DNA from: Gammaproteobacteria bacterium
GTDB taxonomy: Bacteria; Pseudomonadota; Gammaproteobacteria; Pseudomonadales; Pseudohongiellaceae
DNA: 39,770 nt
Reading direction: 5' to 3'
Assembly: GCA_030831125.1 (NCBI GenBank)
Contig: JAURLQ010000071.1
Span: 1 to 39,770, forward strand
Below the pieces are notes generated by a model. It ran no database searches. It had not been told where the DNA came from and saw nothing but the letters and a program-made list of their open reading frames with translations. Below, piece by piece: positions 3,260 through 21,189 of this stretch (position 1 is the stretch's first letter; every line of letters starts with the position of its first letter). The position numbers and the translations under genes were made by a program.

Positions 3260-3346
3260 TGGTGCCCGGGACCGGAATCGAACCGGTACGGGGTTTCCCC
3301 CGAGGGATTTTAAGTCCCTTGCGTCTACCAATTTCGCCACCCGGGC
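3260..3346 (-). tRNA. leuZ: tRNA-Leu (anticodon UAA)
   Basis: An 87-base class II tRNA read on the minus strand. The acceptor arms GCCCGGG and CCCGGGC pair perfectly. The anticodon loop CTTAAAA gives UAA, and there is a long variable arm (CTCGGGGGAAACCCCG). The T-arm GGTTCGATTCC is normal and CCA is encoded. It is the last of three tRNA genes, in the same order as Escherichia glyW-cysT-leuZ. Its 3' end faces the integrase and probably serves as the attachment site; the gene remains intact. Confidence 0.97.
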
Positions 3347-3403
3347 ATGCGCAGTGCATACCTGTGCAAAGCAGCAATTGGTCTGGGATAGGAGGCTGGG
3401 AAT

Positions 3404-3477
3404 TGGAGGCTGGAGTCGGAATCGAACCGGCGTACACGGAGTTGCAGTCCGCTGCATAACCACTCTGCCATCCAGCC
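3404..3477 (-). tRNA. cysT: tRNA-Cys (anticodon GCA)
   Basis: A 74-base cloverleaf with acceptor arms GGCTGGA and TCCAGCC, anticodon loop CTGCAAC giving GCA, a normal T-arm, the U73 discriminator expected for tRNA-Cys, and encoded CCA. It sits between the Gly and Leu tRNA genes and is probably co-transcribed with them. Just downstream, the 9-mer GGAGGCTGG (plus strand) that spans the tRNA 3' end is repeated at 3391-3399. Confidence 0.97.
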
Positions 3478-3518
3478 TTTCTGGGACCAAATCCTGGTTT
3501 GCGGAGACACAGGCAAAC

Positions 3519-3594
<76 letters not shown>

Positions 3595-4449: not shown

Positions 4450-4712
4450 AGGAGGGATTGCTGGGCAACAATGTGCACGAATACCACTGTCCCGGTTTGA
4501 TCAAATAATACTGGATATACGCACCTTTCAGTTGGTGCCTCTTCGACACGCCGTAAACCTGTCCCTGGGGGCTGGACTGCGCCCGCAAGCGGGTTCAGCC
4601 ACCTGCCGGGGCAGGTGTCGTTCCACAATGCAGCAAGCTGCGCTTGCAATACGTATTGTTCCACCCATGCCACAGACGGTCGTTCAAACTATTACAGCAA
4701 CCCAGCCTCATC
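4450..4712. repeat. Palindromic intergenic element, copy 1 (expanded)
   Basis: This element fills most of the 347-base gap between uvrC and pgsA. The ends of its core match the other copies: CGACACGCCGTAAACC from 4544 and CATGCCACAGACGGTCG to about 4682. Instead of a simple second hairpin, the middle holds about 85 extra bases with its own hairpins: CCCGC/GCGGG, CACCTGCC/GGCAGGTG, and the 12-base palindrome CAATACGTATTG. Flanks (GGATTGCTG near 4456 and ATTACAGCAACCC near 4691) resemble the terminal inverted repeat of copy 2. No gene is visible here. Confidence 0.7.
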
Positions 4713-6677: not shown

Positions 6678-6863
6678 TGGTAGTGCCTCAGTTTGATAAT
6701 GACCATCAAATACGGCTGGATTGCAGTAATAATTTTCGCGACACGCCGTAAACCCATCTATGGGGGCTCGGCTGCGGCATCCATGCCGCAGACGGTCGCT
6801 CAACCTATTACTGCAATCCCGCCTCAGCTGGAACTTCCCGAAATTCAAACTGAGTCACTACCA
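6678..6863. repeat. Palindromic intergenic element, copy 2 (nested inverted repeats)
   Basis: The outer arms are 6678-6696 (TGGTAGTGCCTCAGTTTGA) and 6845-6863, a 19-base inverted repeat with one mismatch. Inside is a perfect 14-base inverted repeat, GGATTGCAGTAATA at 6718-6731 and its complement at 6806-6819. The 63-base core (6737-6799) starts CGCGACACGCCGTAAA, contains the hairpin CCCAT-CT-ATGGG and the perfect 9-base-pair hairpin CTGCGGCAT-CC-ATGCCGCAG, and ends GACGGTCGC. It lies between murB and uvrC. No protein is encoded; the form resembles a small non-autonomous mobile element. Confidence 0.85.
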
Positions 6864-19015: not shown

Positions 19016-19729
19016 TCAGAGGCCGCTGGTGTCTGCCATCGGCTGATCCATCAGATTCTGATGTCGCTTGAGGAGACGTTGAACGGTCTTGAAGCTGATG
19101 GGCATGATGGGGGTACTGACCTTTGCAGATATTGCTCGAAGCGATTTACCTTCCTGGCTCATCCTTACGATCTGTTTGAGGACTTTCTGCTCCATGGGGT
19201 TTTCAATCAGACGGCCATTTGAATGCACCAGATAACCGAAAGGACGGCTGCCACCAAGAAAGCGCCCCTTGCTGCGCTGCTTCTGCTTGACCGTCTTGAT
19301 CCTTTCCGTGGAACGGCGTTTTTCCAGACTGTGGAATACCCGGAGCAGTTTTTCAAACGGGGGACAGAACTGGGGATTGGTCAGATCACCTTCCAGATCC
19401 ACCACATAGAGACGTACCTTGCGCCGACGCAGCATGCGCACTACGGACTGCATGTCTTCACAGCTGCTGAACATACGCTCTATGGTGCAGGTGATGACGA
19501 TATCGCCGCTTTCAAGTCTGGAGACCAGTGCCTGCCATCCCTCACGATCCGAGAGGTCGACTGACCACAACAGCCCTTTGTCATGACAGTTTTCATTCAC
19601 CCGTATTCCTACACGCAATGCATAGGTATGCAGGCGCAAACTCTCCTTTTCCAAAAGTTCTTCCAGCTGGTTGCTGCCAAGCTCGGTTTCTTCCACTTCG
19701 GAGGTGCGAACATAACTGTATACGGCCAT
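19016..19729 (-). CDS. Degenerate serine-recombinase-like protein coupled to lolC
   Basis: A 237-residue protein with a resolvase/invertase N-terminal fold (about 3-140) and a short recombinase-type region (GGSRPFGYLV at 159-168, then NPMEQKVLKQIVRMSQEGKSLRAI) ending in a helix-turn-helix-like tail (ISFKTVQRLLKRHQ). Tyr-6, Arg-8 and the nucleophile Ser-10 fall at the same positions as in gamma-delta resolvase. The usual D-R-x-x-R motif reads Glu-84, Arg-85, Met, Phe, Ser-88, so an aspartate and an arginine of the active site are changed. It probably cuts DNA poorly or not at all and may be a DNA-binding protein. It lies directly upstream of lolC with a four-base gap. No inverted repeats of a mobile element flank it. 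Confidence 0.8.
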   Translation of the reverse strand: MAVYSYVRTSEVEETELGSNQLEELLEKESLRLHTYALRVGIRVNENCHDKGLLWSVDLSDREGWQALVSRLESGDIVITCTIERMFSSCEDMQSVVRMLRRRKVRLYVVDLEGDLTNPQFCPPFEKLLRVFHSLEKRRSTERIKTVKQKQRSKGRFLGGSRPFGYLVHSNGRLIENPMEQKVLKQIVRMSQEGKSLRAISAKVSTPIMPISFKTVQRLLKRHQNLMDQPMADTSGL

Positions 19730-21079: not shown

Positions 21080-21189
21080 GACATGAATTCCACAGACCGT
21101 GCAGCGACTGTCGCCAGCAGGGATGCTGGCGCCAAGCCTGCACGGATGTATTTACGGCGTGTCGCAGCACGGCCTGTGGAACTCATGTC
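21080..21189. repeat. Palindromic intergenic element, copy 3 (reverse orientation)
   Basis: Arms at 21080-21108 (starting GACATGAATTCCACAG) and 21161-21189 form a 29-base inverted repeat with three mismatches. The core at 21104-21166, read on the minus strand, begins GCGACACGCCGTAAA and ends GACAGTCGC, aligning without gaps to the 63-base core of copy 2. Its inner hairpin is CGCCAGCA-TCCC-TGCTGGCG, different in sequence from copy 2 but still fully paired. It lies downstream of both the acyltransferase and nuoN. Confidence 0.82.

Follow-up and report, generated by a model that had tools for sequence, protein, structure and literature searches.

What are the palindromes that stand between genes in this stretch of bacterial DNA, and how did they get there? 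The window, by which we mean the whole analysed stretch of 39,770 nucleotides, holds three related copies. A sequence-only reading aligned the cores of copy 2 (6737-6799, plus strand) and copy 3 (21104-21166, minus strand) and left two explanations side by side: a structured RNA element or a mobile palindrome family. We propose that the palindromes are insertions of a non-autonomous miniature inverted-repeat element (MITE) of the YPAL/RU-2 kind, built in three layers around a folded and conserved core. We give this reading a probability of about 0.85.

Table 1. Features of the palindrome copies in the window. R1 is the covariance model; copies 2 and 3 are both among the 35 sequences used to build it.
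Feature	Position	Strand	Evidence
Copy 1, degenerate, with nested hairpin module	4519..4700 (about)	+	R1 28.6 bits over 4519-4620, E 1.3e-5
Conserved motif, copy 1	4545..4557	+	pattern match
Putative whole copy-2 element	6678..6863	+	terminal inverted repeats TGGTAGTGCCTCAGTTTGA / TCAAACTGAGTCACTACCA outside the core
Copy 2, core and outer stem (model R1 extent)	6714..6823	+	R1 111.9 bits, E 6.1e-29
Conserved motif, copy 2	6740..6752	+	pattern match
Copy 3, core and outer stem	21080..21189	-	R1 110.1 bits, E 1.9e-28
Conserved motif, copy 3	21151..21163	-	pattern match

Reading the window again bears out copies 2 and 3 at the places first given for them. Copy 2, which lies in the as-written orientation (GACACGCC), has an outer stem in which GGATTGCAGTAATA pairs with TATTACTGCAATCC. 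Folded as single-stranded DNA it reaches -36.6 kcal/mol (z -7.3), and none of 200 shuffles is as stable. Copy 3 belongs to a subfamily marked by ATACATCC and GCCAGCATCC hairpins, and its outer stem measures about 23 bp; its single-strand DNA fold has a z of -9.2, again with 0/200 shuffles as stable. The arms of the second hairpin do differ in sequence between these two copies, and they do keep their pairing. Outside the core, copy 2 carries terminal inverted repeats that pair at 18/19 positions. We infer the ends of the whole copy-2 element, so that the limits in Table 1 are the likely ones; no target duplication is seen at the site.

The expanded middle ascribed to copy 1 is there: a nested module, CCCGCAAGCGGGTTCAGCCA...TGTCGTTCCAC...TTCCACCC, adds extra hairpins inside the loop of hairpin 2. 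The copy is degenerate, and as a whole it has no unusual folding stability (z -0.49; 63/200 shuffles as stable). Its left and right outer arms resemble different subfamilies and form Watson-Crick pairs at 6/13 positions. Copies 1 and 2 lie on either side of uvrC. Two other features of the window are three clustered tRNA genes near copy 1 (3263-3594, minus strand) and, some 1.4 kb away from copy 3, a gene at 19016-19729 that encodes the N-terminal domain of a serine resolvase (PF00239).

The modelled unit is 110 nt long. An outer stem of about 17 bp leads over an internal loop and a short GAC/GTC stem into a three-way junction, which bears two hairpins with CATCC-N-TG loops or close variants. 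The conserved 13-mer, GACACGCCGTAAA, occurs exactly 55 times in the 3.16-Mb genome that holds the window, hereafter the own genome (29 forward, 26 reverse); its reversed control occurs 0 times in the same genome. R1, built from 35 copies, yields 96 own-genome matches at E <= 0.01, the weakest close to this limit, with 150 of 1414 first-look candidates scored.

Do these copies vary as a folded molecule would? The alignment behind R1 (A1) holds 35 of 46 usable copies and omits nested-module and lowest-pairing ones, which favours the structure, as does the fact that the structure was derived from the same sequences. In these chosen copies the covariation score is 0.498 against 0.155 in shuffles, and 0/500 shuffles reach it. 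Two-sided changes in the 41-pair structure number 284 versus 91.7 in shuffles. Standard pairs make up 90.6% of this structure; with partners slid by 1-3 positions the share falls to 30-40%. Strong covariation includes the 17-bp outer stem, which the first description did not contain. Within this stem (positions 8-24) 76-98% of pairs per position are Watson-Crick (mean 88%), with up to four pair types, in a table of 41 copies: 8/54 were skipped because they had no usable right end or flank, and 5 low-pairing ones of the remaining 46 were omitted, so these copies too were partly picked for pairing. The covariance-model search proposed by the sequence-only reading has thus returned many copies with covarying stems.

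All 42 own-genome copies tested are intergenic according to a purpose-made simple gene finder. The upstream gene is co-directional in 17/42, that is, the copies have no preferred orientation to genes. We considered a sense element at the 3' end of mRNAs. The window copies would suit it, as 3/3 run in the direction of the upstream gene, but the genome as a whole does not (17/42). Without a preferred orientation a simple role at mRNA 3' ends is not supported, and we rejected it.

At least two end types surround one core in the own genome, as judged by eye, and the own subfamilies differ in their ends. No target duplications were found around own-genome copies; several have palindromic flanks instead. 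Of the features of a MITE, the own-genome copies display terminal inverted repeats only. At one locus (L040, 650-1060) the right linker is the exact reverse complement of the left and forms a 29-bp perfect arm, and at another (L011) it is partly so, which suggests arm-to-arm copying. Another repeat, GAAGCAGG...GAGCGAGCGAGCTGAGCTCACCCTGG, is present a short way downstream of a copy in L017 (~1640-1730) and within a copy in L040 (~770-900).

If the element is mobile, relatives should have empty sites, as the sequence-only reading pointed out. The gap between pgsA and uvrC measures about 347 nt in the own genome versus 54-80 nt in 9/9 congeners that show both genes. The gap between murB and uvrC measures about 368 nt in the own genome (to uvrC residue 29) versus 8-46 nt in 8/8 congeners, computed from coordinates up to the first aligned uvrC residue (9 to 29). 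R1 finds no copy in 10 congener uvrC loci, some of which are short. Both flanks of uvrC are empty in the sampled congeners. Since copies 1 and 2 are missing at the same gene junctions there, they were probably inserted after the split from these congeners, which does not by itself prove recent movement; UvrC identity to the congeners is 70-78%. Across the genus, copy number ranges from 0 to 96 per genome, with matches in 10/11 genomes, the own included. The mobile palindrome family, one of the two explanations offered at the outset, gains support from the many covarying copies together with the empty sites.

This family already has a name. R1, which contains own copies only, matches four loci that are positive for the Rfam family Ysr224 (L127 and L150, both Yersinia similis, L192 and L206) at 59.5-73.8 bits (E 6.8e-14 to 6.7e-18). 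Ysr224 itself scores 112-134 bits there, at overlapping places and on the same strand. The Y. pestis RU-2 sequence, given in Table 1b of PMC2759123, has the same core on the reverse strand. Compared by sequence, the palindromes have the core of YPAL/RU-2, a palindromic mini-element of Yersinia. Published accounts describe YPAL as palindromic and intergenic, with duplications of 3-26 bp, targets that span or adjoin dyad symmetry, and empty sites (PMC2229807). The Yersinia genomes studied in PMC2847712 contain it in abundance, with the exception of Y. ruckeri, and its conserved fold has an RNAz score of 1.00 (PMC2267715).

According to these sources, YPAL/RU-2 resembles our element in the core ACGCCGTAAATACATCCATGTAGGCTCG with a second CATCC hairpin, a length of 130-168 bp, an intergenic position and tens of copies; empty and filled sites and target duplications are reported for YPAL, and its conserved fold had been noted earlier. 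In our element we find the conserved core with two CATCC hairpins, intergenic copies in large number (42/42; 96 matches) and empty sites at uvrC. It differs from YPAL/RU-2 in its outer arms and ends, in extra hairpins nested in the loops, and in hosts well outside the enterobacteria. The kinship with YPAL, the outer arms, the terminal inverted repeats and the several sets of ends per core had all gone unseen in the sequence-only reading.

Rfam models recognise only part of this family. Own copies reach at best 24.2 bits against Ysr224 (RF02770, Yersinia sRNA 224; 10 loci), with a gathering score of 70. Among 18 core loci, 4 reach the gathering score of Ysr224 and 0 that of TwoAYGGAY (RF01731); the other 14 reach neither. 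TwoAYGGAY, whose gathering score is 43, yields sub-threshold matches only (29.8 and 35.3 bits). In further sources, Ysr224 matches 6/19 below threshold (best L226, 38 bits, E 2.9e-5) and TwoAYGGAY 1/19 (E 0.057). Because the unrelated hairpin families osmY, DUF3800-IV and MIR1432 also match the elements as weakly, sub-threshold Rfam matches mean little. TwoAYGGAY resembles the opposite strand of the element in that two hairpins with AYGGAY loops sit within a long outer stem, and it has gamma-Proteobacteria among its hosts; it differs in that its matches stay below threshold. PMC2864571 rates TwoAYGGAY as 'probably' an RNA and probably without a cis-regulatory role; its sources are human gut, gamma-Proteobacteria and Clostridiales.

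How far does the core extend? About a fifth of the sampled genomes of the class (52/274, own included) match at E <= 1e-4. In a sample of the phylum 17/299 match, all of them the own genome or from the same order or class. Among the matches listed for the exact pattern are Rheinheimera, Microbulbifer, Marinobacter, Methylotuvimicrobium, Yersinia, Pantoea, Lysobacter and Luteimonas; a single short MAG contig (L153) that bears the label Rhodobacteraceae is also among the matches listed. A query of one own-genome copy gives no match in phage records, plasmids or E. coli genomes. A table in PMC2847712 lists 3 YPAL matches in E. coli, so the own-copy query is too distant for an E. coli search. A Ysr224-type query (L192) matches 17 plasmid records, and we dropped the statement that the element never occurs on plasmids. 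These records are enterobacterial plasmids, 14 of them predicted conjugative, that bear a relative of the Ysr224-type element; such carriage is a possible route of its spread. In one genome six successive R1 matches, spaced by about 228 bases (G464:C1:94416-95646), look like a tandem array of the element.

The clearest view of the ends comes from a Methylotuvimicrobium-like genome (G259), which contains two kinds of elements, F1 and F2. F1 ends, CAGCAATTCCCA(G/A)TTTG, occur 156+141 times at <=3 mismatches, their control 1+0 times. We delimited 30 F1 elements from 31 fetched places, picked by a high R1 score or listed ends. Perfect target duplications of 8-10 bp flank 22/30, 16 of these with 9 bp; 2/30 have 5-bp matches and 6/30 none. 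Duplications of 8-10 bp indicate a DDE transposase. REP sequences with RAYT transposases and integron attC sites are likewise repeated palindromes in which the folding of one strand matters; the duplications set the present element apart from them, and neither a GTAG tag nor arrays like those of attC came to notice in it.

The same genome harbours an insertion sequence of about 1.6 kb (L301:644-2272), in which a DDE_Tnp_1 gene (30.1 bits, cut-off 23) is enclosed by perfect 22-bp ends, CAGCAATTCCCAATTTAAAACC. It has 12-16 terminal bases in common with the F1 MITE and no longer stretch, and no target duplication of its own is seen. Because the ends match those of this resident insertion sequence, F1 is most likely moved by a DDE-type enzyme like that of L301. 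The search for this partner covered PF01609: of 32 matches, 30 loci were inspected for the F1 end and one has both ends. We do not assign the insertion sequence to the IS4 family, as its larger open frame reaches only 19.3 bits against a cut-off of 152 (NCBIfam). F1 of G259 combines terminal inverted repeats with target duplications, and it is the type for which we see ends in common with an autonomous insertion sequence. The insertion sequence itself contains an F2 element (R1 37.2 bits), which apparently interrupts the transposase gene, so that an element of one end type lies within the probable helper of the other type.

F2 ends, TATACC...TCAAAATTCGGC and GCCGAA...GGTATA, occur 182+192 times in G259, their control 6+1 times. 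The right end was located in 22/30 fetched loci, and in 19/22 both borders carry TA but no more than that. YPAL duplications of 3-26 bp, as given in the source cited above, compare with 8-10 bp for F1, TA for F2 and none seen in the own genome. The core pattern is present in 20/30 fetched F2 loci, and R1 matches the core in all four tested (L272, L305, L309, L313). From the end counts we estimate roughly 150 F1 and 190 F2 copies. Because one genome places two unrelated sets of ends around the same core, this core reads as a module distinct from its ends, with slow divergence of the ends as the rival. One case, L314, is a chimera: F2 on the left, F1 on the right, with the junction inside the core. 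Another single example, an 82-bp F2 element without a core (L311), could be a deletion. A third kind of surroundings (GGTTTGGTGACTCGCTTGACAGG...) encloses a core in L313 of G259 (~1718-1828; R1 77 bits). The ends probably move the DNA, and the core is probably a conserved folded module; one such module seems to be common to different transposons among Gammaproteobacteria. In the literature on Yersinia palindromes, YPAL and gammaproteobacterial MITEs we found no mention of a core common to several MITE families, nor is there any in the available part of a 2024 review (PMC10969869); likewise we found no literature on a MITE in Methylomicrobium buryatense. In neither case is absence from print established.

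The core also gains hairpins. F1 elements are 164-165, 214-216, 228, 261-263, 277, 299, 306, 311, 353 or 391 bp long, and in the elements read out the extra length sits in the hairpin 2 loop, in L268 also in the hairpin 1 loop. Additional hairpins, many of which have an AAGGAT or CATCC loop, make up most of it. In the own genome these two loops hold a different module, and one related to the latter occurs in L211, on another contig. With a weak pattern, TGTCGYTCCAC, the own-genome module was encountered nowhere outside core loops. As an independent mobile element it was tried and rejected: the pattern gave 17 hits, 14 in core loops and 3 seemingly unrelated. The reversed control gave 4+6 hits, which makes the pattern itself weak. 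A palindromic mini-element, AAGCGCCAACTTAAGG..., lies inside F1 elements of G259, in the hairpin 1 loop of L268 and in the right arm of L245.

Which strand folds can be read from the errors in the stem. We counted outer-stem mismatches that have a pair on either side, on the strand as written. Among 119 matches listed, 99 have >=11/16 outer pairs, and these contain 72 A.C versus 19 G.T mismatches (p 2e-8, from same-genome copies that are not independent and a set in which several genomes occur more than once). The other counts are C.T/T.C 39, G.A/A.G 6, C.C 13, G.G 2, T.T 3 and A.A 2. Under stricter pairing (>=13/16, 84 copies) there are 37 A.C and 7 G.T; both filters treat A.C and G.T alike. 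The tilt is 21 against 9 in F2 copies (19 copies counted, 30 loci), 20 against 11 in own copies and 9 against 2 in hairpin 2. On the opposite strand the common mismatches read G.U/G.T, G.A and G.G. These are the better tolerated mismatches. The bias suggests that one strand folds, as RNA or as single-stranded DNA. Recent F1 changes lean the same way (20 A.C-making versus 10 G.T-making), so mutation may account for some of the bias.

Could the folded strand be the whole story? The palindromes might be mainly a structured RNA, either a cis-regulatory element or a small RNA, whose spread is incidental. Strong covariation and the strand-biased mismatches (A.C 72 versus G.T 19) speak for this, as do the Rfam labels of TwoAYGGAY (Cis-reg) and Ysr224 (sRNA) and the RNAz score of YPAL in PMC2267715. 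A transposon fits 96 matches, 42/42 intergenic and unoriented copies, and perfect duplications in G259 better than a gene-specific regulator does. Ysr224 and TwoAYGGAY read opposite strands, and the latter stands as probably not cis-regulatory in the table of PMC2864571; all in all we regard an RNA as unlikely to be the main identity of the element. More plausible, if still doubtful, is that the arms copy each other during replication by template switching or quasi-palindrome correction, with no selection for folding. Such copying would leave few intermediates, which is what the outer stem displays (76-98% Watson-Crick, mean 88%, up to four pair types, in copies chosen for pairing), and the 29-bp perfect arm of L040, with L011 in part, looks like its product. 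Arm-to-arm copying alone does not predict a strand-specific mismatch bias, however, and the arms drift while the core motif and the loops stay conserved.

The separation of core and ends has its own competitor. F1 and F2 may be one old element with diverged ends rather than separate MITE families, given that the layers (ends, arms, core) are arranged alike in both and that the own subfamilies also differ in ends. We think this improbable: a duplication of about 9 bp with CAGCAATTCCC and a TA with TATACC are wholly different within one genome, and the core-less L311 exists, although this single case could have arisen by deletion. That the window palindromes are a simple duplicate that diverged by chance, the outcome on which the sequence-only reading would have abandoned its proposal, has practically no probability left. 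It is refuted by the 96 matches, by the 0/500 shuffles and by pairing that drops from 90.6% to 30-40% when partners are slid.

We return to the layered MITE of the YPAL/RU-2 kind. Such an element would be about 165-190 bp long. Its outermost layer, the terminal inverted repeats, would be cut and joined in trans by transposases of ordinary insertion sequences. Target duplications, an insertion sequence with the same ends and one core with different ends were each observed in G259; in the own genome, movement would follow the same route with another transposase. The second layer would be the outer arms, which vary in sequence and keep their pairing. The third would be a three-way-junction core of about 58 nt with two hairpins and CATCC-N-TG loops, conserved in many Gammaproteobacteria. 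Copy number, covariation, the empty uvrC sites and the homology to Ysr224/YPAL are direct observations. The core may be kept because the strand with the AYGGAY loops, either as RNA or as single-stranded DNA, folds and serves the element; exchange inside the core may also carry it from one MITE family to another.

A bolder proposal goes further. The core may be a selfish structured module that resides in several unrelated MITE families with different transposases, moves among them through exchange within the core, accretes hairpins in its own loops and is kept for the function of one folded strand (RNA or single-stranded DNA). We put this forward tentatively, at somewhat less than an even chance. 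If it is true, Ysr224 and perhaps TwoAYGGAY would be views of one module.

The YPAL/RU-2 core is already known; what we add are further hosts, several sets of ends and nested hairpins. A repeat known mainly from Yersinia is now linked to a family in 52/274 genomes of the class. Our results suggest that Ysr224, and perhaps TwoAYGGAY, are cores of MITEs and not regulators of particular genes. These elements turn the usual MITE anatomy round, with a conserved middle and exchangeable ends. G259, in which the two end types number roughly 150 and 190 copies, offers a direct way to ask what a transposon gains from a structured core.
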